A stretch of DNA of 37,448 nucleotides from Chthoniobacterales bacterium (GTDB taxonomy: Bacteria; Verrucomicrobiota; Verrucomicrobiia; Chthoniobacterales; UBA6821): NCBI GenBank assembly GCA_019747895.1, contig JAIEQF010000041.1, forward strand, positions 1 through 37,448. The letters are read 5' to 3'. The notes below the pieces were generated by a model that saw only the letters and a list, made by a program, of their open reading frames with translations, was not told the DNA's origin and did no database searches. How positions within the stretch are numbered: position 1 is the first letter of the stretch; each line of letters starts with the position of its first letter. Shown here piece after piece: positions 730-36,778 of this stretch. Both the position numbers and the translations under genes were made by a program.

Positions 730-1329
730 TTATAAGCTAGAAACGTCTTCCCCTACCATATAGCGAGTAAAACGTCGAATGATAATATTTTCACCAAGTT
801 CTGTGATTTTGGAGGAAACATAATCCTTAATAGTCAAGTCTGGATTCTTCACAAAGGCCTGTTCCATAAGGCAAATCGTGCTATAAAATTTATCCAACTT
901 ACCATCAACAATTTTTTCCACAATGGCTTCGGGCTTTCCTTTTACTTGCTCGCAGTAGATGGCTCGTTCTGCTGCAACAAGCTTAGAATCGACTTGCTCA
1001 CGATTCACTACGATCGGATGACTTGCGGCAATCTGGAGGGTGATGTCTTTGACAAAATCACGGAAGATCTCGTTCTTAGCGACAAAATCTGTTTCACAAT
1101 TGATTTCGACAAGAACGCCAACTTTGCCTTGCAAGTGAATATAGGAAGCGATAACCCCTTCTTTCGTCGCGCGAGTTGCTTTTTTATCTGCGCTTGCAAT
1201 TCCTTTTGCACGGAGAATCGCTTCTGCTTTTTCAAAATCGCCTTCTGCTTCTTGGAGCGCACGTTTGCAATCCATCATTCCGGCATTTGTTTTTTCACGG
1301 AGTTTCTTAACTAAATTAGGGTCTATCAT
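730..1329 (-). CDS. tsf: translation elongation factor Ts
   Basis: EF-Ts exchanges GDP for GTP on EF-Tu. The N-terminal UBA-like domain (about residues 1-45) is followed by the signature TDFVAKN at residues 80-86 within the EF-Tu-contacting core. At 199 aa it is the short form, like those of Thermus and actinobacteria, and it lacks the extra subdomain of the ~280-aa proteobacterial type. It follows rpsB at a 68-bp gap, the usual rpsB-tsf pairing. The gap contains a heptamer repeat array that ends three bases before the ATG, so there is no Shine-Dalgarno sequence. Confidence 0.97.
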   Translation of the reverse strand: MIDPNLVKKLREKTNAGMMDCKRALQEAEGDFEKAEAILRAKGIASADKKATRATKEGVIASYIHLQGKVGVLVEINCETDFVAKNEIFRDFVKDITLQIAASHPIVVNREQVDSKLVAAERAIYCEQVKGKPEAIVEKIVDGKLDKFYSTICLMEQAFVKNPDLTIKDYVSSKITELGENIIIRRFTRYMVGEDVSSL

Positions 1330-1332
1330 AAC

Positions 1333-1367
1333 AGGCTAACAGGTATCAGGTATCAGGTTTCAGTGAA
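1333..1367 (-). repeat. heptamer array A1, upstream of tsf
   Basis: Read on the minus strand, units CCTGAAA, CCTGATA, CCTGATA and CCTGTTAG follow one another at 7-8 bp spacing. The array continues as CCTGTT directly into the tsf ATG at 1329. It occupies the place where a ribosome binding site would be expected. Confidence 0.85.
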
Positions 1368-12865: not shown

Positions 12866-12900
12866 CCTGTAACCTGTACCCTGCAACCTGTAACCTGCCT
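12866..12900 (+). repeat. heptamer array A2, upstream of mscL
   Basis: Five consecutive 7-bp units read CCTGTAA, CCTGTAC, CCTGCAA, CCTGTAA and CCTGCCT. The last ends two bases before the mscL ATG, leaving no room for a Shine-Dalgarno sequence. This is the cleanest array in the window. Confidence 0.9.
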
Positions 12901-12902
12901 TC

Positions 12903-13328
12903 ATGACACCTCGCCTCCTCAAAGAATTTAAAGATTTCATCTCCCGCGGCAACATGATCGATCTTGCCGTTGGAATTATTATCGGCGCTGCGTTTGGAAA
13001 AGTTGTGAATTCCTTAGTTAACGATCTTGTGATGCCACCTATTGGACTTCTTTTAAAAGGAATCAATTTTCAAAATCTTTTTTTCGCACTCAACGGCCAT
13101 CATTATGAAACTTTAAAAGCAGCACAAGAGGCTGGAGCAGCAACGATCAACTATGGCAACTTTATTACCACGGTCATCGAATTCCTGATCATCGGAGCCT
13201 CTGTTTTTGGGCTTGTACGAGTCATCATGATCCTGCGTATTAATGCATCCCTCACTGCTCCTCCAAACAAAACGGAACAACTGCTCACAGAAATTCGGGA
13301 TACACTGCAACAACAAAAAGAAAATTAA
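12903..13328 (+). CDS. mscL: large-conductance mechanosensitive channel
   Basis: MscL is a homopentameric inner-membrane channel that opens under membrane tension during osmotic downshock. The 141-aa product has the conserved N-terminal amphipathic helix and first membrane segment (FKDFISRGNMIDLAVGIIIG, about residues 9-28, then AAFGKVVNSLVNDLVMPPIG), a periplasmic loop, a second membrane helix (about 84-106) and a cytoplasmic C-terminal helix. It is divergent from rplK and convergent with the next gene; the two stop codons share four bases (TTAA). The heptamer array A2 abuts the start. Confidence 0.97.
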   Translation: MTPRLLKEFKDFISRGNMIDLAVGIIIGAAFGKVVNSLVNDLVMPPIGLLLKGINFQNLFFALNGHHYETLKAAQEAGAATINYGNFITTVIEFLIIGASVFGLVRVIMILRINASLTAPPNKTEQLLTEIRDTLQQQKEN

Positions 13329-14233
13329 GGCTGAGGAAAAGAAGCAAAATCAATAAAATCGTCAATTTGAGCAGGTCGGAAATACTCTACACCCGGAATA
13401 ACAATAATATGTTTTGGAGTACCGGGATATAAGGAATCACTTTTTTGATCAGGTAAAGCAAAGAGGAAATTACCATCTCCAGACCCAATAGCATTGACCA
13501 TATCTGCAAGGATAAAGAAACTTTTCCCTGCAACGGAATCAGGAGAATCACTCTTCATTTTTTCTAGTGTTGCCCAATTGGAACCTGCACAAATTTTTTC
13601 TGCGATATCAGCTGCTGTTCCAAAAGTAGAAGAAAATTGGTAACGTGAATAAAATAATCCGCATTTTGTGTTGGCGTCATTAGCGTCTTTTTCATTCAAA
13701 GTGTCATTGAAAACATTGATATAATCACAGAGTTCTTGAACAGTTGGATTTTGTCTCCATTGATTAAATTGCTGCTGCACTTCTTGAGAAGAAACGGCAT
13801 CAATAATAACGTTTTCACATTTTGGATTCACGAAGTAACTGTGATAATAAGGCTGAGGTCCAGCCCATATGACCATTCCACTGCAGGGAGGAAAAAAAAC
13901 ACCAGGTTGTTGATAGTGTTCTGTAGAAGTAGAAAGATGAATGCAACTTTCATCACTGCCCTCATCCATCAACGCTTTGTCATAGTAGTCGATACGTGGT
14001 GCTGTTGGATAATTGATATAGAAAGATTTTTCAGAATAAGAAACATTTCTTTCCTTCGTATTTAAAAAAGCAACATACTCCTCCACGATGACGGGATTGT
14101 CAGCACTTCCAATTGAAAACTGATTAGAAGTGCCAACGTGCTTAACTGGCCCAGATTCTTGAGCAGGAGGATTTGACACTTGGGCCAAAAGAAGAGAAGG
14201 GCAACACACAAGGAGGAAGAAGTATTTTTTCAT
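13325..14233 (-). CDS. secreted protein, possible DsbA-like thioredoxin fold without CXXC
   Basis: The 302-aa product begins with a signal peptide (MKKYFFLLVCCPSLLLAQ), so it is probably exported to the periplasm. The segment IGSADNPVIVEEYVAFLN (about residues 42-59) resembles the start of DsbA/thioredoxin-fold proteins (GxADAPVxIVEYxDFxC). Near the end, GTPKHIIVIPG resembles their cis-proline region. The redox CXXC expected right after the first segment is missing; the next residues are TKERNVSYS. Six other cysteines are scattered through the mature part. I infer a degenerate, non-redox or structural relative; the family assignment is uncertain. Its 3' end overlaps mscL by 4 bp. Confidence 0.6.
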   Translation of the reverse strand: MKKYFFLLVCCPSLLLAQVSNPPAQESGPVKHVGTSNQFSIGSADNPVIVEEYVAFLNTKERNVSYSEKSFYINYPTAPRIDYYDKALMDEGSDESCIHLSTSTEHYQQPGVFFPPCSGMVIWAGPQPYYHSYFVNPKCENVIIDAVSSQEVQQQFNQWRQNPTVQELCDYINVFNDTLNEKDANDANTKCGLFYSRYQFSSTFGTAADIAEKICAGSNWATLEKMKSDSPDSVAGKSFFILADMVNAIGSGDGNFLFALPDQKSDSLYPGTPKHIIVIPGVEYFRPAQIDDFIDFASFPQP

Positions 14234-14383
14234 ATATTTTGAGGGCTCTTGTAAACCAACAGCGTCAGTTTTTCAATTCTATTATTGCGTTGTGAAAATT
14301 ATTTTTGAATTAACAAAAATGAAGAACAGTTGATGGATAAATTTTTGTTGCCTTTGTTAAATTTAAAAAATGACCCAGCTCTT

Positions 14384-14411
14384 CCTGTAGCCTATAGCCT
14401 ACAGCCTATTT
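14384..14411 (+). repeat. heptamer array A3, over the chrA stop
   Basis: Units CCTGTAG, CCTATAG, CCTACAG and CCTATTT follow at 7-bp spacing. The CTA inside the last unit is the complement of the TAG stop of the minus-strand chromate transporter gene, so the array reaches into the coding end. Confidence 0.85.
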
Positions 14412-14972
14412 TATCACCAACCAACTCACCACTCCCGCAATTACCATGATCAGCACGGGATTGAGTTTGGTGTAAAGCAGCAGCATAAGCGCGATGAATG
14501 CCATCACCCCTGTGATCCAATCAGCAATAGCGGTCTTGGCAACAGTATAAGTCGCGGCAAGAATCAAGCCACAGGTAATTGGCATCAAGGCTTTCTCGAT
14601 GGCGACTTGCCAAGGCGCACCCCTCCACTTCTCCCAAAAATGAGCGGCAACGAGCAGCACGATCGAACTCGGAATAAAAATAGCAAAAATAGAAATGATC
14701 GCTCCAACAATAGCTGCATGAACAACAAAGTGATTACCCAAAAAACCTGTTGCTTTGATTCCAATGAGCTCAACGATTAACGTTGTAGGACCAGGCCCTG
14801 CCTTACTCAAACTAAAACAATCCACAAATTGTTCACTCGTTAGCCAATGATATTTTCCTACGGCAACCTGCTCCAATGTTGGCAGAATGGTGTTTCCGCC
14901 ACCAAAAGCAGAAAGGGAAAGCGACGAAAATAATTTCGCCAGCGTTAGATAAATAGAAACAAGTGAAGTCAT
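14406..14972 (-). CDS. chrA: chromate-type transporter half, second subunit
   Basis: This CHR-domain membrane protein of 188 aa contains the motif AFGGGNTILPTLE (about residues 21-33) and the later SKAGPGPTTL segment, followed by hydrophobic helices. The family exports chromate and possibly other anions. Long members are fusions of two CHR domains; here the halves are separate genes, as in the short-chain CHR pairs, which probably form a heterodimer. Its ATG overlaps the TGA of the upstream half by 4 bp (ATGA), typical of translational coupling. The stop codon lies within heptamer array A3. Confidence 0.88.
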   Translation of the reverse strand: MTSLVSIYLTLAKLFSSLSLSAFGGGNTILPTLEQVAVGKYHWLTSEQFVDCFSLSKAGPGPTTLIVELIGIKATGFLGNHFVVHAAIVGAIISIFAIFIPSSIVLLVAAHFWEKWRGAPWQVAIEKALMPITCGLILAATYTVAKTAIADWITGVMAFIALMLLLYTKLNPVLIMVIAGVVSWLVIK

Positions 14973-15571
14973 GGCTTATCGATCCCTTCTTGATCAGCTG
15001 TAACCTGTCTTGGCCGATAATACCAAATCGCCAACGGAGCCATGATGAGGATGGCGTAAGGAATGGAAAGGTGTCCCTTTTTTATTAAAAAAAATGTCGC
15101 CAGAAAAATGACGATATCAATTTTGTTTTTGAGTGATTCTCTTGCTGATTCAACAAACATACTTGCCATCAAACCACAGGCCACAGCAGCAACACCTTTA
15201 AGAATGGACTCCATGGCAGGCAATGCCCCAAAGGTGAAATACAAATACCCAACAAGAAAAGTAAAAATTGCTGGCGGAGCAATCAAGCAGCTGAGCCCCA
15301 CGACCACGCCCCTTGGTCCACAAAGATGATTTGCAATGTAGAGCGAAATGCCAACAACATTGGCCCCCGGCAGAGCTTGACTCAAAGCCAGCCCAGGAAA
15401 GAATTCTGCGTTGGTCATCCACTTTTTATTTTCCACAATAATGCGCCGAACATAAGCCGTTAAGCCTCCACCAAAGCTTGTCGCCCCAATAAAAAGAAAT
15501 GTCTTTGCAAGCTGGCGCAGAGAAACTTTTTTTTCTGACAAGGTCGTTGGTACTGAAATCTCTTTTTCCAT
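14969..15571 (-). CDS. chrA: chromate-type transporter half, first subunit
   Basis: This CHR-domain protein of 200 aa has TSFGGGLTAYVRR (about residues 36-48) and ALSQALPGANV (about 68-78), the equivalents of the FGGP and PGP motifs of ChrA, and several membrane helices. It is the upstream member of a coupled pair with the gene at 14406-14972. The substrate cannot be told from sequence; chromate resistance is only the family name. The phospholipase D-like gene ends 9 bp upstream, so the three genes may form one operon. Confidence 0.88.
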   Translation of the reverse strand: MEKEISVPTTLSEKKVSLRQLAKTFLFIGATSFGGGLTAYVRRIIVENKKWMTNAEFFPGLALSQALPGANVVGISLYIANHLCGPRGVVVGLSCLIAPPAIFTFLVGYLYFTFGALPAMESILKGVAAVACGLMASMFVESARESLKNKIDIVIFLATFFLIKKGHLSIPYAILIMAPLAIWYYRPRQVTADQEGIDKP

Positions 15572-22563: not shown

Positions 22564-22926
22564 GAGATAAAGACTCTCTTTATACCCCGACAGCATTTCG
22601 CTCTAACAGTAATAGCAGATCCAAATATAGTCAAATTACTTAGAAATTACAGGGAAGAACGCAGGAATTTTTAGAAAAGGTCAGGCCGAAGACCGAGCGC
22701 TATCTAAACGATAACGTGACGTGATGAGAACGCAGTCTTTTCCTAAAAAGGACAAGTCAGTTGCTTGTAAGTTCTAAGTAATTTGACTATAAATAGCAAA
22801 CTGCGTTGGAAATTCGCTGAGGTGGATGAAGTACAAGGAACCTCGGAGCGCAGGAGCTGAGCGTATATGTAATATGTGAGGCGACGAGCACCGGAGTGAC
22901 GCCGTAGTTCGCCGCCTCAGTAAAAT
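22564..22926. other. 363-bp intergenic region made mostly of repeat elements
   Basis: No gene is seen between the second sulfotransferase-like gene and pnp. The region is filled by MITE copy 1 (22626-22791) and a second, different palindromic element (22810-22928) that reaches the pnp stop codon. Confidence 0.8.
22626..22791. mobile_element. MITE copy 1 (166 bp, 25-bp terminal inverted repeats)
   Basis: The element begins TATAGTCAAATTACTTAG and ends with the inverted complement. The 25-bp terminal repeats differ at one position in this copy. It is 166 bp long and matches copy 2 (25606-25771) at all but five positions by direct comparison. It has no open frame. The ends are 5'-TA...TA-3', compatible with TA target duplication as in IS630/Tc1-mariner elements, so it is probably mobilised in trans. 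Confidence 0.88.
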
Positions 22927-25605: not shown

Positions 25606-25771
25606 TATAGTCAAATTACTTAGAAATTACAGGGAAGAACGCAGGAATTTTTAGAAAAGGCCAGGCCGAAGACCCAGCGCTATCTAAACGATAACGTGAC
25701 GGGATGAGAACGCAGTCTTTTCCTAAAAAGGACAAGTCAATTGCTTGTAATTTCTAAGTAATTTGACTATA
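25606..25771. mobile_element. MITE copy 2 (166 bp, perfect 25-bp terminal inverted repeats)
   Basis: Same element, same length and same orientation as copy 1. The terminal inverted repeats are a perfect 25-bp match in this copy. Only five internal or terminal substitutions separate the copies, which indicates recent spread. Together the two copies bracket rpsO-pnp as direct repeats. Confidence 0.9.
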
Positions 25772-25790
25772 AAAACAAAGAAACGACTTT

Positions 25791-25818
25791 TTGAATCCAC
25801 TGTTTATTGTGTTAGCAT
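25791..25818 (+). promoter_or_regulatory. candidate valS promoter
   Basis: TTGAAT (25791-25796) and TAGCAT (25813-25818) are separated by 16 bp, four of six matches each to the sigma-70 boxes. The surrounding ~38 bp is nearly identical to a segment at 32972-33009. Transcription would start near 25825. Confidence 0.4.
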
Positions 25819-25852
25819 ATTAACCTTTAAACTTTGCTTTTTTAGTCTTCCA

Positions 25853-25868
25853 CCTTTAGCCTTCAGCC
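25853..25868 (+). repeat. heptamer array A5, upstream of valS
   Basis: Units CCTTTAG and CCTTCAG followed by CCG end three bases before the valS ATG. It is the shortest of the arrays, with a looser CCTTTAA unit at 25824. Confidence 0.65.
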
Positions 25869-25871
25869 GTT

Positions 25872-28556
25872 ATGTCTACGTCTGAAATTTCCAAAGCCTA
25901 TACCCCTACTGACGTTGAGCCTCTCTGGTATCAGCGTTGGTCCGATGCTAATTGTTTTCATGCTGATGAAAAATCATCTGCCCCTGCTTTTTCTATCGTC
26001 ATACCTCCACCAAATGTCACCGGCGTACTCACGCTGGGGCACGTCCTCAACAACACGCTGCAAGACATCTTGGCTCGACGCGCACGCCAAACGGGCCACG
26101 AAGTCCTTTGGCTCCCTGGCACGGATCATGCAGGCATCGCGACACAGACGGTCGTTGAACGCCAATTGCGCAAGGAAGAAAAGAAAACGCGCCATGATTT
26201 AGGACGCACAGCTTTTCTTGAAAAAGTTTGGGAATGGAAAGAAAAACATGGCGGCATCATCCTCGAACAGCTCCAACGACTCGGTTGTTCCTGCGATTGG
26301 AAGCGCGAGCGCTTCACGATGGACGAAGCTTATGCCAAAAAAGTTCAAGAGACTTTCGTTGACCTACACCAAAAAGGAATGATCTATCGCGGCAAGCGGA
26401 TGGTCAATTGGTGTCCTGTCTCCCACACCGCGCTCAGTGATGAAGAAGTTATTCCCAAAAAACAAAAAGGAATTCTTTATCACTACAAATTAGAAATCGT
26501 AGAACAGCCTGGCACCTGGCTAGAAATCGCCACCACCCGCCCCGAAACCATCATGGCTGATGCGGCTCTGGCCGTGAACCCGAACGATCCACGCTATGCC
26601 GCATTCATTGGAAAACATGTTCGCCGCCCATTAGGACCTCTAGCTGAACTGCCGATTGTTGGAGATGAAGCTGTCGAGATGACTTTTGGTACAGGCATTC
26701 TCAAAGTGACTCCAGCTCATGACAAAATCGACTATGAAATTGGAATGCGCCATCAACTTCCGATTATCGATGTTCTCAATTCCAATGGCACGCTCAACGA
26801 ATTCGCTGGTGAAGATTTTGCTGGCCTCGATCGTTTTGAAGCACGCGTCAAAGCCGCAGAGCGCCTACGCGAGCTCGGCTTGCTCGTGAAAGAAGAGCCT
26901 CATGAAAATAACGTCGGCTTTAGCGAACGAGCTGATGTTCCCATTGAGCCACGCTTGAGCGAGCAATGGTTTTTGCGTTATCCAAAAACCAAAGAAGCTC
27001 GCGAGGCTGTCCAACAACATCTCATTCGTTTTTTTCCAGAGCGTTGGGAAAAAGTTTATCATCATTGGCTCGAGAGTATTCAAGACTGGTGCATCAGCCG
27101 CCAGCTTTGGTGGGGCCATCAGATTCCCGCGTGGCATTCGGCAGATCATGCTGAAATCAAAGTGCAACTCGAATCTCCAGGCGCAGGCTGGAAACAAGAT
27201 GAGGACGTTCTTGATACTTGGTTCTCTTCGTGGCTCTGGGCGCATGAGACGATGGATGAAGCGACGCGGAAAAAATTCTATCCAACAACCGTTCTTGTCA
27301 CCGGTCCTGACATCATCTTTTTTTGGGTTGCCCGCATGATCATGGCAGGGCTCGAGTACACTGGAGAACTTCCTTTCCGTGATGTCTATTTCACCGGCAT
27401 CATCCGCGACAAACAAGGCCGTAAGATGTCCAAGAGTCTCGGCAATTCCCCCAACCCACTCGACTTGATTGCAACTTATGGCGCTGATGGATTGCGCTTC
27501 GGCATGATGAGGATCGCTCCCAACGGTCAAGATATTCGATTCGACGAACAACAGATCGTAGAGGGACGCAATTTTGCCAACAAACTTTGGAATGCTGCAC
27601 GCTTCCGTGAAATGCAGGAAAATGAAGAAGAATTAACCGCAAAGAACGCAAAGAGCACAAAGAAAAAATGCAAAATTAATCTTTCGCAATATGAACTTCC
27701 GGAGATTGCCGTCACCCTTCTGGCTCAATTTGATGAGATGCATACGTCTTTGCGAAAGGCTTATGCTGAATATCGTTTTCAAGAAATTGCAGGATTGCTC
27801 TATGATTTTTTCTGGGGCGACTATTGCGACTGTTTCATTGAGGCCGCAAAGCCGACACTCAACGGTAATGATGAAAAGGGAAAAGCTGCAATCCTTGCAA
27901 CGATGGATACCGTTCTCTCAGGGTTTTTGAACTTACTCCATCCGCTGATGCCACACATCACAGAAGAACTCTGGGAGCGCCTGGGATTCAAAACCTCATC
28001 AGGATTTGAAGATCGCTCTAATTTCTTGCTCTACTCAGCGCCTCCTCAAGAAAAACTTTTAGCGCATCTCTCTGCAGAAAAAATCGACACTGCAAAAAAA
28101 ACTACGCTTCAACTTTATCAAGTCATTCACGCTGCACGTAATCTTCGCAGCGAATGTAAAATCAACGCCAAACAAGCAATTGATTTTCTCATCACTCCAA
28201 AAGATTCGGAAAAACCGTGGACTCCAGAGCAGCTTGAAATTTTTGCTGCTTTGGCACGTGGGAAAAATGTTGCTCTTTTTTCTGGCACCCTTCCTAAAGA
28301 AAGTGCTTCTGTCGTGACGGATCTCGGAACAATCACGATCCCGCTCGAAGGCCTGATTGACCCGAAAGCAGAAAAACAACGCCTCAGCACGGAAATTAAA
28401 AATGTAGAAAGCGAGCTGATCAAAGTTCGGGCCAAACTTAGCAATGCTGCTTTTGTTGAAAAAGTTCCCACTGCAGTTCTTCAAGAACATCGCGATCGCG
28501 AAGTCCGCTGGCAAGAGCGCCTTTGCTCACTACGAGCTATGTTGGGAAAATTATAA
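25872..28556 (+). CDS. valS: valyl-tRNA synthetase
   Basis: ValRS charges tRNA-Val and proofreads threonine. The 894-aa class I enzyme has PPPNVTGVLTLGHV (about residues 45-58) with the HIGH-like motif written TLGH, so the first His is Thr. The editing domain follows in the middle (TTRPETIMADAALAVNP), then KMSKS at 518-522, the anticodon-binding domain and a C-terminal coiled coil (from about residue 820). Residues 589-597 (TAKNAKSTK) are encoded by three copies of a 9-bp repeat within a variable loop after LWNAARF. No Shine-Dalgarno sequence is present; heptamer array A5 abuts the ATG. It is convergent with the PIN gene, overlapping by 6 bp. Confidence 0.97.
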   Translation: MSTSEISKAYTPTDVEPLWYQRWSDANCFHADEKSSAPAFSIVIPPPNVTGVLTLGHVLNNTLQDILARRARQTGHEVLWLPGTDHAGIATQTVVERQLRKEEKKTRHDLGRTAFLEKVWEWKEKHGGIILEQLQRLGCSCDWKRERFTMDEAYAKKVQETFVDLHQKGMIYRGKRMVNWCPVSHTALSDEEVIPKKQKGILYHYKLEIVEQPGTWLEIATTRPETIMADAALAVNPNDPRYAAFIGKHVRRPLGPLAELPIVGDEAVEMTFGTGILKVTPAHDKIDYEIGMRHQLPIIDVLNSNGTLNEFAGEDFAGLDRFEARVKAAERLRELGLLVKEEPHENNVGFSERADVPIEPRLSEQWFLRYPKTKEAREAVQQHLIRFFPERWEKVYHHWLESIQDWCISRQLWWGHQIPAWHSADHAEIKVQLESPGAGWKQDEDVLDTWFSSWLWAHETMDEATRKKFYPTTVLVTGPDIIFFWVARMIMAGLEYTGELPFRDVYFTGIIRDKQGRKMSKSLGNSPNPLDLIATYGADGLRFGMMRIAPNGQDIRFDEQQIVEGRNFANKLWNAARFREMQENEEELTAKNAKSTKKKCKINLSQYELPEIAVTLLAQFDEMHTSLRKAYAEYRFQEIAGLLYDFFWGDYCDCFIEAAKPTLNGNDEKGKAAILATMDTVLSGFLNLLHPLMPHITEELWERLGFKTSSGFEDRSNFLLYSAPPQEKLLAHLSAEKIDTAKKTTLQLYQVIHAARNLRSECKINAKQAIDFLITPKDSEKPWTPEQLEIFAALARGKNVALFSGTLPKESASVVTDLGTITIPLEGLIDPKAEKQRLSTEIKNVESELIKVRAKLSNAAFVEKVPTAVLQEHRDREVRWQERLCSLRAMLGKL
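27637..27663 (+). repeat. nonamer array inside valS
   Basis: Three 9-bp units, CCGCAAAGA, ACGCAAAGA and GCACAAAGA, lie in frame within valS and encode Lys-rich residues. Related sequence occurs at 32891-32918 and, inverted, at 34565-34622. A 9-bp unit keeps the reading frame at any copy number. Confidence 0.75.
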
Positions 28557-31032: not shown

Positions 31033-32163
31033 ATGAGCTTTAATCAATCCTCTAACCTCCAGCCTCCAGCCTCCATCCTTACTGCTGTCGCTCCTATTGA
31101 TCGCCTATTTATTTTCATCATGGCAGGAGGAAGTGGCGAACGCTTCTGGCCGCTAAGCAGGATTCACACTCCCAAACATCTTTTGAAGCTGCTTGGAAAA
31201 AAAACCTTGCTCGAACAAACGCTAGAACGTTTTGAGACCATCGTTCCGCCAGAGAGAATTTTTGTACTCACGAATGAGGCTCAACATGCCGTAACACTTG
31301 CCGCTCTCCCCAATCATCCTCCCAAAAACATTATCGCTGAACCAGCTAAGCGCGACACGGGACCTGCAGCGGCTCTAGCGACAGCAGTTGCCTTGCGCCA
31401 ACAAGAGAATGCCATCATAGGACTCTTCCCTGCTGATGCCATGATTCATGATGTTGCAACTTTTTGTCATCAACTCTTAGAAGCCACGCATACTGCAGCA
31501 GAGCATCCTGCATTAATAACTTTTTCTATTAAACCCAGTCATCCCTCAACAAGTTTCGGATACCTGGAGCTTGGAGAAAAACACGAGGCTCCTCATGCAA
31601 AGCAAACTTGCTTTCAGAAAGTCCATCAGTTTGTTGAAAAGCCACACCTCACGAAAGCTGAAGAATTTTTTAGCGGTCAACGTCACGGATGGAATGCAGG
31701 CATGTTTCTCTGGCAAGCGCAATCATTCTTAGAAGAATGCCATCGTCAACAACCAGAATTAGCTTCTTTCATCGAACGATTTTCGACGGAGACCTCTCCT
31801 GAAAAATTATTACAGCGCGATTTTGCTCAACTCCCAAAAATCTCTGTCGACTACGCGATCATGGAAAAAGCCAAGCATGTAATTGCTGCCATCGCTGAAT
31901 TCGACTGGGATGATGTGGGGCATTGGACAGCCCTTCCAAAACATCTTGGCATGGATGCGAAAGGAAACACCGTCCAAGCTTCTGCAGAAAAAATTCTCCT
32001 TCACGATTCAACTAACAACATCATTGTCTCCAAAGGAAAAACAGTGGCCCTTTGCGGCGTCACCGATCTCGTTGTGGTCCAGACCGAGGATGCCATCCTC
32101 ATCTGCCACCGCGACGCCGTAGAGAATATCAAGAAGCTACCGGTTCCTGATGAGTTGAAGTAG
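31033..32163 (+). CDS. manC: mannose-1-phosphate guanylyltransferase
   Basis: The enzyme makes GDP-mannose from mannose-1-phosphate and GTP for polysaccharide or glycoconjugate synthesis. The 376-aa product has the nucleotidyltransferase signature MAGGSGERFWPLSR (residues 30-43), EPAKRDTGPAAALA, the FVEKP sugar-binding motif and EFDWDDVGHW near the end. It is the short, single-domain form without a C-terminal isomerase domain. The N-terminus is unusual: residues 6-17 are encoded by a heptamer array. No other start codon lies between the array and the essential LFIFIMAGG strand, so the array is probably translated. Confidence 0.93.
   Translation: MSFNQSSNLQPPASILTAVAPIDRLFIFIMAGGSGERFWPLSRIHTPKHLLKLLGKKTLLEQTLERFETIVPPERIFVLTNEAQHAVTLAALPNHPPKNIIAEPAKRDTGPAAALATAVALRQQENAIIGLFPADAMIHDVATFCHQLLEATHTAAEHPALITFSIKPSHPSTSFGYLELGEKHEAPHAKQTCFQKVHQFVEKPHLTKAEEFFSGQRHGWNAGMFLWQAQSFLEECHRQQPELASFIERFSTETSPEKLLQRDFAQLPKISVDYAIMEKAKHVIAAIAEFDWDDVGHWTALPKHLGMDAKGNTVQASAEKILLHDSTNNIIVSKGKTVALCGVTDLVVVQTEDAILICHRDAVENIKKLPVPDELK
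31049..31083 (+). repeat. heptamer array A6, inside the manC 5' end
   Basis: Units CCTCTAA, CCTCCAG, CCTCCAG, CCTCCAT and CCTTACT are in perfect 7-bp register. They start 16 bp after the manC ATG and read as SNLQPPASILT. Confidence 0.88.
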
Positions 32164-32926: not shown

Positions 32927-32954
32927 CTGAAGGCTGAAGGCTGAGGGCTGAAGG
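32927..32954 (-). repeat. heptamer array A7
   Basis: Four units read on the minus strand as CCTTCAG, CCCTCAG, CCTTCAG and CCTTCAG. It faces the LTXXQ gene, whose start is about 110 bp away, so it does not abut a coding end. Confidence 0.88.
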
Positions 32955-32971
32955 TTGTGATTACTTAAAGG

Positions 32972-33014
32972 CAAAGAAATAATTTTTTGAATCCACTGTT
33001 TATCATGTTATCCT
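32972..33014 (+). repeat. duplicate of the valS promoter-like segment
   Basis: About 34 of 38 bases match 25776-25813, including TTGAAT (32987-32992) and, 16 bp on, TATCCT (33009-33014). As before valS, a heptamer array follows downstream (33042). Here no plus-strand gene follows; transcription would run antisense into xseA. Confidence 0.6.
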
Positions 33015-33041
33015 TTTTGATATGGTTTTTTCTTCCTTTCG

Positions 33042-33069
33042 CCTTCAGCCCTCAGCCCTCAGCCTTTTT
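33042..33069 (+). repeat. heptamer array A8, over the xseA stop
   Basis: Units CCTTCAG, CCCTCAG, CCCTCAG and CCTTTTT. The complement of the first units provides the last codons and the TGA stop (33045-33047) of xseA, read as RLRAEG and stop. Confidence 0.88.
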
Positions 33070-34538
33070 CTTTCTTCCGCAACAACATCAACACTCCCAT
33101 CGCCAAATTGAATTGAGAGCAACTCTCCGATGTTGACTTGCGCAGAAGAAGCAATGACTTTTCCTTTTTGATTACGAGTGATGGTGAAGCCTCTCGACAG
33201 GGTTGCTTGGGGACTCAATGCCGTCAGTGATGCGCGGAGACGCTCGTATTGAGATTGCAAGCGGTGTTGTTGATAAACCATCTGCTGTGTCAACTGGCGC
33301 TGCAATGCTTTTTGTTGATGAGTTGCCTGTTGAAAAAAAGACCATGGATGATGGCGACCCAGTCGTGAGGCCATTGTCTTCGATATCGCTTTCACCTGCT
33401 CGCATCGATGGCGCAAGGTTGTATCTAGCGTTTTTTCCCAATGATCCAAATTTTGTTGTAACTCCCAACAGCGTCGCTCCGGTTCTCGAAAAAGAGAGGC
33501 TGCTTTCGCTTGGTCCCATCGATGAAGAAGGTGCGCATGCTGCAAGAACACTTCTCGCTGCAGACGCTTCACCAGCAAGCCAACACTTTCTAACAGACTA
33601 ACTCCATCAGCAGCCAAGAGCTCTGCAGCGGCACTCGGGGTTGGAGCGCGAACGTCCGCGACAAAATCGCAAATGGTGTAATCAATTTCATGCCCCACCG
33701 CACTCATCACAGGAATGCGGCTAGCCACGACAGCACGAGCCACTATTTCTTCATTAAACTCCCACAAATCTTCCAAGCTACCTCCTCCTCGCGTCACAAC
33801 GATGACATCAACTGCCCCAATGTTGGAGACTCCAGGTGAAAATCCTTCAATAGCACGAGCAATTTCTTCTGAAGCACCTCGTCCTTGTACCCGCACCGGT
33901 GCAATCACAATCTGTAGGCCAGGATGCCGTCGATAAAGCACATTGAGAAAATCAGCGATCGCGGCTCCTGTTGGCGAAGTCACTACTCCAATGCGTTGAG
34001 GAAAACGAGGCAACGGCCGCTTTCGTCCTGGCTCAAAAAGACCTTCCTCCGCCAACTTCTGTTTGAGCGCTTCAAACCTTGCTTGCAAAACGCCAACACC
34101 ACGTGGCTGAATCACATGCACCATAAGTTGATACTGACCTCGCGGTTGATAAACTGTCACCGTTCCGTGGATCTGCACAGCAAGCCCATCTGCAAGTCGC
34201 AAAGAAGAAAGAGGGAGGGCCGCTGCCGTACGCGCAAAAAGAACACAAGCAATCTGAGCATGGGCATCCTTTAAGGTGAAGTAATGATGCCCTGAAGATT
34301 GCAATCGATAATTAGAAATTTCTCCCTCGATCCAGACTTCACCAATCTCTCCTTCCAATAAAGTGGCGACACGACGCGTTAGTTCCGTCACGCTCAGTAT
34401 TTTTGGCGCAGCTGCAGCCAGCAAAGAAGAATTCAATGTCTCTTCTTTTTTTTTGCTTTTCGTTGAAATTTTTTTTACAACACGCGTTCCCAGTTGTTGC
34501 GGCTCGCTGAAAAAACTGAGCTCGGTTTGTTGCGTCAT
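33045..34538 (-). CDS. xseA: exodeoxyribonuclease VII large subunit
   Basis: XseA is the catalytic subunit of ExoVII, which degrades single-stranded DNA in repair. The 497-aa product has an N-terminal OB fold (VTELTRRVATLLEGEIGEVWIEGEIS from about residue 50, then SGHHYFTLKD), the catalytic core (RIGVVTSPTGAAI, TRGGGSLEDLWEFNEE, PVMSAVGHEID) and a C-terminal coiled coil. A ~40-residue Lys/Ser-rich N-terminal extension precedes the OB fold. The small subunit gene xseB is not in the window. The C-terminal six residues come from heptamer array A8. Confidence 0.95.
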   Translation of the reverse strand: MTQQTELSFFSEPQQLGTRVVKKISTKSKKKEETLNSSLLAAAAPKILSVTELTRRVATLLEGEIGEVWIEGEISNYRLQSSGHHYFTLKDAHAQIACVLFARTAAALPLSSLRLADGLAVQIHGTVTVYQPRGQYQLMVHVIQPRGVGVLQARFEALKQKLAEEGLFEPGRKRPLPRFPQRIGVVTSPTGAAIADFLNVLYRRHPGLQIVIAPVRVQGRGASEEIARAIEGFSPGVSNIGAVDVIVVTRGGGSLEDLWEFNEEIVARAVVASRIPVMSAVGHEIDYTICDFVADVRAPTPSAAAELLAADGVSLLESVGLLVKRLQREVFLQHAHLLHRWDQAKAASLFREPERRCWELQQNLDHWEKTLDTTLRHRCEQVKAISKTMASRLGRHHPWSFFQQATHQQKALQRQLTQQMVYQQHRLQSQYERLRASLTALSPQATLSRGFTITRNQKGKVIASSAQVNIGELLSIQFGDGSVDVVAEERKRLRAEG

Positions 34539-34561
34539 TTGGTTTTAATTAAAATTTAAAG

Positions 34562-34624
34562 GAATTCACCACAAAGAAAACAAATGTCGCTTTAGCGACG
34601 TTGTGATCTTTGTGGTAAATTCTT
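34562..34624 (-). terminator. large hairpin after the aminotransferase gene, made of inverted nonamers
   Basis: Outer arms ACCACAAAGA and TCTTTGTGGT (34567-34576 and 34607-34616) pair, with a central perfect stem GTCGC-TTTA-GCGAC (34585-34598). Both arms are nonamer-type sequence facing inward. It begins immediately after the stop of the DegT-family gene, so it may end or stabilise that transcript before xseA. Confidence 0.6.
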
Positions 34625-36246: not shown

Positions 36247-36282
36247 CCTTCAGCCTTTAGCCTTTAGCCCTCCAGCCTTACT
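36247..36282 (+). repeat. heptamer array A9, over the pal stop
   Basis: Units CCTTCAG, CCTTTAG, CCTTTAG, CCCTCCAG (8 bp) and CCTTACT. The TTA in the last unit is the complement of the TAA stop of pal. Confidence 0.88.
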
Positions 36283-36778
36283 TAGTGATCCCGAACTCCG
36301 CACGACGGTTCTTGGCCCACGCGGCCTCGCTGTTAGCAGGATCTGCAGGCATCTCTTTGCCAAAGCTGACTGTTTGAACTTTATTAGCCGAAGCGCCTTT
36401 AGCAATCAAAGCCTCACGCACGGCTAAAGCGCGGCGCTCGCCAAGACTGCGATTGTACTCTTCAGTTCCGCGATTGTCAGTAAAACCAGCAACGATGACG
36501 GTCTTGCCCGAAGCACGAACGCTTTGTGCCACAGCAGCAACTTTCTGTTGCTCCTCGGCACCAACAGTTGTGCTATCAAAGGCAAACTGAACCGGCGCAA
36601 ATTCAGAGCGATTGACATTAGCACCCATGAAATTGGCGCCTTCAGAGCGCTCGGTTAATGGCGTTCCGCTCACATAGTCACCATCAATACCAGCGGATTG
36701 TTTATTTTTTTTGTTAGCACAAGCAGGAAGCAACGCGGCAACAAGAATCAAAGAGAAAAGAGAGTATTTATTTTTCAT
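36278..36778 (-). CDS. pal: peptidoglycan-associated lipoprotein (OmpA C-terminal domain)
   Basis: The 166-aa product has a lipoprotein signal peptide with lipobox LLPAC (Cys20) and an OmpA-like domain (about residues 60-166). The domain includes VQFAFDSTTV, VAGFTDNRGTEEYN and LGERRALAVREALIAKG, the residues that bind peptidoglycan diaminopimelate. Pal ties the outer membrane to the wall together with the Tol system; no tol genes are in the window. Its presence implies a Gram-negative envelope. Confidence 0.93.
   Translation of the reverse strand: MKNKYSLFSLILVAALLPACANKKNKQSAGIDGDYVSGTPLTERSEGANFMGANVNRSEFAPVQFAFDSTTVGAEEQQKVAAVAQSVRASGKTVIVAGFTDNRGTEEYNRSLGERRALAVREALIAKGASANKVQTVSFGKEMPADPANSEAAWAKNRRAEFGITK

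Follow-up and report, generated by a model that had tools for sequence, protein, structure and literature searches.

Why short tandem repeats between genes should end just where coding begins or stops is the question raised by this locus. The stretch of DNA analysed here, called the window (37,448 nt), is contig C35 of a 2.06-Mb Verrucomicrobia MAG of 55 contigs (G000). By its RplK, G000 falls within the Verrucomicrobia close to Chthoniobacterales/Spartobacteria MAGs, with 98% identity to a Verrucomicrobia MAG. It was originally predicted from the window that arrays of a heptamer beginning with CCT are anchored to start and stop codons with a fixed polarity, the 3' edge meeting starts on the same strand and stops on the opposite one, and that they may mark either growth tolerated only up to the coding limit or a binding site linked to gene borders.

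Heptamer arrays at gene borders

The six contacts named in the original prediction are all present in the window. Three of them are with start codons: the minus-strand array CCTGATACCTGATACCT (1341..1357) lies 11 nt before the ATG of tsf (730-1329, minus strand, Pfam EF_TS), a GYAA-type array of 5 units that follows a T-run (12866..12896, plus strand) lies 6 nt before the ATG of mscL (12903..13328, plus strand; MscL channel, Pfam MscL 5.9e-42), and a two-unit array (25853..25866, plus strand) lies 5 nt before that of valS (25872-28556). The others are with stop codons. The final CTA of an ATAG/ACAG-type array (14384..14407, plus strand) is the TAG stop of a chrA half gene on the opposite strand, whose stop thus lies inside the array (14406..14972, minus strand, Pfam Chromate_transp 2.7e-33). 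A TCAG-type array (33035..33062, plus strand) runs over the stop of xseA at 33045-33047 and gives that gene (33045-34538, minus strand, Pfam Exonuc_VII_L) its last codons and its TGA, and a TCAG/TTAG array (36247..36269, plus strand) is separated by 8 nt from the stop codon of 'pal' (36278-36778, minus strand), which belongs to the OmpA family. A CCTCCAG array that is open in both directions (31049..31079, plus strand) is found near a nucleotidyltransferase gene, either 40 nt before the called start or inside the longer frame of that gene. chrA consists of two half genes (14406-15571) with a 4-nt overlap, and a lone leftover heptamer, CAGGTTACAG, sits within the end of the upstream half. An Rfam search of the window returned tRNA only and no known RNA family at the arrays.

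The same contacts were examined in a 797-kb sample of G000, made up of the window and the first 40 kb each of contigs C36-C54, with C55 masked. Gene calls, and with them the gene starts, come from a simple hexamer model written for this analysis; many of the called starts are backed by the same ATG in alignments with sister genomes. An array was defined as at least 3 heptamer units fitting CCT-N-Y-A-R (CCTNYAR), and the null model was random placement of the array within the same spacer (2000 runs). Across the G000 genome, the pattern (CCTN4)3CCT has 249 matches compared to 3 for the reversed control pattern, and a pattern-blind period scan of G000 gave 7 as the main tandem period (50 of 60 arrays). 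The sample holds 90 CCTNYAR arrays, dominated by the GYAR (52), YCAG (18) and AYAR (17) types and 3-8 units long, and 69 of them are intergenic. When these 69 arrays were compared with the null model, a coding border lay no more than 15 nt from the 3' edge in 39, whereas 9.2 ± 2.5 were expected and random placement reached 20 at most. The 5' edge was that close to a border in only 3 (9.1 expected), and the nearer border was the 3' one for 59 arrays (binomial P = 1.4e-9). Contact was seen for 30 of the 52 start-facing arrays, with a distance mode of 6 nt, and for 9 of the 17 stop-facing arrays; convergent spacers are nearly without CCT arrays (1/69). Border contact was replicated in two sister genomes, G002 (~80% identical to G000; 12/27 arrays, 3.9 expected) and G005 (~90% identical; 10/15, 2.4 expected), in stretches chosen around GYAA arrays and not by gene distance.

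Chance as the origin of the pattern is ruled out by the 249 versus 3 matches and by the random-placement test. Enrichment at the border and orientation bias both hold across the 797-kb sample, so the outcome that was to speak against the original prediction, namely that neither would be seen genome-wide, is not what was found.

Inverted arms, recurring cores and turnover between sister species

All 13 pairs of neighbouring arrays separated by less than 400 nt point outward, and each of the 12 pairs that could be classified has a single heptamer type (P = 5e-5 for the type match by itself). Paired arrays are inverted arms that flank a spacer of 58-334 nt, which gives the terminal inverted repeats and the short non-coding core that characterize a MITE. 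The xseA locus is the complete two-armed case within the window: a left arm of TCAG type (32927..32954, minus strand) and the right arm of the same type that overlaps the xseA stop enclose a core of 80 nt (32955..33034, plus strand). The fixed polarity of the arrays is due to this inverted symmetry of outward arms. The possibility of an isolated start-codon motif is weakened by the stop-facing arrays and the inverted pairs. No clear partner arm was found for 48 of the 69 intergenic arrays, and a degenerate outward unit was detected at the opposite border for 16 of 41 unpaired arrays, compared to 124 of 774 array-free spacers (16%; difference P = 9e-4). Contact at the 3' border was found in both groups, in 8/21 paired arrays (1.5 expected) and 31/48 unpaired arrays (7.6 expected).

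Such symmetry is not confined to CCT heptamers. The 435 spacers with a length of 50-700 nt were each compared border to border, and at an inverted repeat score of at least 14, 71 spacers (16%) carried inverted repeats across both borders, versus 1.7% of controls that paired the borders of different spacers. Other arms in this comparison were the 9-mers CACAAAGAA and GATGGAAGG and the heptamer GTAAYGR, which makes the CCT arrays just one of several kinds of end. Spacers between inverted 9-mer arms of the CACAAAGAA or GATGGAAGG families include 34539-34624 of the window, C45:11831-11994, C39:21433-21594 and others. These 9-mer arms are nearly perfect over up to 40 nt and occur in convergent spacers as well.

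Which arm touches a coding end depends on its reading frame content. Read in reverse, CCTATAG, CCTACAG, CCTTCAG and CCTTTAG contain stop codons and CCTGYAA and CCTCCAG contain none; because 7 and 3 are coprime, the stop triplet of a heptamer recurs in every frame once per 21 nt. The stop contacts of an arm type are explained by the stop codons that its heptamer carries on the reverse strand. ATAG and TCAG arms supply or adjoin stops (-8 to 14 nt, with one at 26). At a GYAA arm, the gene either reads through the arm to a stop immediately after it or has already ended 11-33 nt before reaching it, and CCTCCAG arrays occur inside genes. At starts, SD-like motifs precede ~11% of called genes and 0/31 array genes, and a T-run precedes GYAA arrays. 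Start contact may be tolerated because this organism seldom uses Shine-Dalgarno sites, in which case translation could proceed despite an arm at -6; the clustering of start contacts at 6 nt would be only partly explained in this way.

The cores between the arms recur. An ATAG-type core of ~85 bp, taken from the ATAG pair at C52:9724-9809, was matched 14 times in G000, 13 times in G002 and twice in G005, and had no match in the three remaining species of the genus. In most complete copies, heptamer arms join the core at precisely the same positions and the surrounding sequence is unrelated, and many copies are nested between the arms of a second, 9-mer family (ATTCACAGGGATGGAAGCGATGG). At C45:32250-32525 and in about nine similar copies, an ATAG-type element is central between two GGGATGGAAG-family 9-mer arms. 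The TCAG-type core of xseA is found at five or more loci (xseA, valS, C47, C50 and C51) and also in G005. The valS copy (25772..25852, plus strand) has the two-unit array before valS as its right arm. Dispersal of one core in unrelated surroundings is thus a second MITE feature of these spacers. A separate 166-bp repeat with 20-nt inverted ends TATAGTCAAATTACTTAGAA (22626-22791 and 25606-25771 of the window) is present in 23 full, nearly identical copies in the 797 kb and also in G005 and G001; it is a typical MITE, and one copy cuts the left side of the element before valS.

Orthologous junctions in G005 and G002 were retrieved via 90-nt tags of 48 border genes. At many of them the whole spacer differs between sister species, and unit number also differs between orthologues. 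The array at C52:38647 is identical in G002, and the G002 orthologue of mscL has two degenerate units directly before the ATG. Presence and absence at one site between close relatives, a third feature of MITEs, was seen at two junctions: at C52:29281, G000 has ~68 extra nt with an array where the genes overlap in both sisters, and the chrA halves overlap in G000 and have an ATAG element between them in G002. C52:29281 is the clearest empty site, where no target-site duplication is visible and a right arm alone is present; the element boundary is ambiguous because the ends are tandem arrays.

Five spacers changed the type of both arms together between sister species. The change is from ATAG to TCAG at C40:31488-31738, where the interior is partly conserved, and from GYAA to TCAG at C46:27001-27184 and near C52:17114-17294. 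C53:39146-39358 has TCAG arms in G000 and GYAA arms in G002, and the arms of C48:12685-12935 are GYAA in G000, TCAG in G005 and ATAG in G002, although its interior is homologous in all three species. Several of the switched spacers sit between divergent genes. A motif, GCCGAAGGCCTTACTTTGA, adjoins heptamers of ATAG or GYAA type at 13 of 14 places (9 arms classed automatically, the other 4 being degenerate ATAG arms judged by eye), and genome-wide matches to it add arms of TCAG and AAACTC type.

Exact CCTGYAA arrays were found in three of the six species of the genus and, among ~380 other genomes of the phylum, in two with one array each, so they represent a recent and local expansion. The loci of RplK relatives hold few arrays. 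Many G002 contigs (C50, C55, C151, C208, C212, C219 and others) stop 200-400 nt short of the start of the orthologous gene, which looks as though assembly breaks off at these spacers.

A proposed MITE-like element and the competing explanations

Based on these data, each array is probably an arm of a MITE-like intergenic inverted-repeat element, small (about 60-330 nt) and without coding content, whose arms are exchangeable. The arms would be short tandem arrays with the CCT strand outward, each reaching one flanking gene whatever the direction of that gene. The recurring cores and the presence or absence of elements between sister species suggest that the elements spread to new gene junctions, presumably by transposition, and insertions within genes would mostly be lost, which would leave the survivors between coding limits. 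A gene running into an ATAG or TCAG arm would be closed by the TAG or TGA of that arm, and GYAA arms, being open backwards, would be read through to a near stop or placed past an existing one. The same core occurs with different heptamers and both arms of a spacer change together, probably through recombination or fold-back copying between the arms. A regulatory function is not required by this model, and we infer that the elements may have no such role. They are best filed with MITE-like extragenic elements as a variant, not as a proven MITE.

This changes how the original prediction is to be read. Border enrichment and polarity stand, but the arrays, rather than being independent marks at codons, form the outward-pointing arms of inverted-repeat spacers whose cores recur. 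The suggestion that growth is tolerated only up to the coding limit survives insofar as frame content decides which array may touch or overlap a coding end, but not in the sense of arrays seeded independently at codons. None of the evidence supports a binding site tied specifically to gene borders.

Some observations do not sit easily with the element model, among them the majority of arrays (48/69) without a clear partner arm and the absence of a visible target-site duplication at C52:29281. Start contacts cluster at 3-9 nt, which is tighter than plain insertion and purging predicts, and an ordinary MITE does not change its arms over a conserved interior. Insertion confined to tiny gaps would account for only some of the cases; array-free spacers have medians of 88-230 nt by configuration, and the element-poor G001 is no more compact (60 kb examined). 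A search for an autonomous partner with heptamer ends, made with PF01797 only, found two genes, neither with heptamer ends. The arms stay matched while their family differs between sister species, and it is conceivable, though we hold it tentatively, that some process copies or swaps both arms of a spacer in concert, in which case the whole gap between coding regions would be one mobile module in many families (7-mers and 9-mers). To our knowledge, such a concerted-arm mode of intergenic DNA turnover has no description in bacteria.

The tight contacts 3-9 nt before the ATG could also reflect control of translation or transcription, in which a ribosomal or RNA/DNA-binding protein binds arrays before the start and the stop contacts are by-products. 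The T-run ahead of GYAA arrays, the lack of SD sites in array genes, the near absence of arrays from convergent spacers (1/69) and the array at C52:38647, identical in two species that are ~80% alike, are all consistent with such a site. However, orthologous genes freely lose or replace the array, its type at the same gene differs by species, and the functions of neighbouring genes are mixed. Stop-facing arrays share the polarity and arrays form inverted pairs with shared cores, and we consider a control site to be quite unlikely. Mutation in place is somewhat less doubtful, though still not probable; here slippage would extend arrays up to the coding limit, template switching during replication would copy one arm onto the other, and no element would move. 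This would explain how both arms switch over a conserved interior (C48:12685-12935 and partly C40:31488-31738), and the array types are linked by single-base steps and vary in unit number between orthologues, but it does not explain why the same cores are found at unrelated loci or how whole spacers are gained or replaced, and arrays hold at 3-8 units in the sample.

The replacement of whole spacers could instead come about when strains exchange them through homologous recombination, with the flanking genes as anchors and the arrays only marking alternative spacer alleles. The complete spacer differs at several loci whose flanking genes are ~90% identical, as such exchange would predict. It covers turnover, but not the origin of the outward arms, the recurring cores or the nested arms, and as a full explanation it seems about as doubtful as mutation in place. 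In co-directional spacers, complementary arms lie at the stop of one gene and the start of the following one, which would also fit an RNA stem. Paired in the mRNA, the arms would either draw these two codons together (translational coupling) or serve as terminators. Such a stem is very improbable. Symmetry and joint switching are also found in the divergent spacers C53:39146-39358 and C46:27001-27184, the arms of which are never in one mRNA; with several switched spacers flanked by divergent genes, the switching of arms cannot be put down to pairing within a single mRNA. Additionally, convergent spacers, the expected place for terminators, contain hardly any CCT arms.

Relation to known repeats and implications

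The nearest report concerns TAACTGA heptamer direct repeats in marine Beggiatoaceae, for which a regulator binding site was proposed (MacGregor 2015, PMC4679880). Those repeats are mostly of 2-6 units, intergenic and in forward orientation, ending a few nt from a start codon, usually without an SD; a few face stop codons, overlap is limited by the stop codons of the unit itself, and a single inverted repeat is reported in the parts of that study drawn on here. A forward array ending a few nt before the start is common to both systems. However, the CCTNYAR system differs in having several families of heptamers, inverted arms on both sides, recurring cores, frequent stop-facing arrays and arm switching between species. 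The unit TAACTGA is also not matched, being CCTNYAR here with a minority AACTGYN family in the genome.

BrickBuilt of Porphyromonas gingivalis is a minisatellite-containing MITE with 23-nt repeats inside, small inverted ends and a distance of 49-591 nt from genes, and its segments are reported to hold promoter elements with bidirectional activity (PMC4596501). It resembles the spacers described here as a small intergenic inverted-repeat element with tandem repeats, but in this organism the element terminates in the tandem heptamers themselves, many of which reach a coding border. Bacterial MITEs as a group (PMC10969869) are likewise short, non-coding, present in many copies between genes and bounded by inverted ends, whereas the ends here are heptamer or nonamer arrays that are exchangeable on one core. 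REP elements and their RAYTs (PMC3733652) are similar in being extragenic inverted repeats near gene ends, and Y1_Tnp genes are found here as well, but the present elements are not short, tagged palindromes of 20-40 bp. The two Y1_Tnp (RAYT-like) genes of G000 (C18:9475-9786 and C47:619-954) are flanked by GGGGTC-type repeats. A RAYT link was rejected, as the flanks of both genes are without CCTNYAR arrays. The heptameric G-rich repeats of Xanthomonas and Nostoc (PMC4692102) and the cyanobacterial STRR also form abundant intergenic heptamer arrays; the G-rich unit is G4-forming, whereas CCTNYAR lacks a G-run and is marked chiefly by the pairing of outward arms.

Heptamers at start codons have so far been explained elsewhere as binding sites, and the data presented here give them a different reading, in which the presence of an inverted partner should be checked first. 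Whether such arrays are regulatory or selfish is testable through comparison of orthologous gene junctions. The results also suggest that much of the intergenic DNA in this genus consists of short mobile segments, replaced from one close species to the next as far as the coding limits, and that the position of a gene's end can be set by such a segment.
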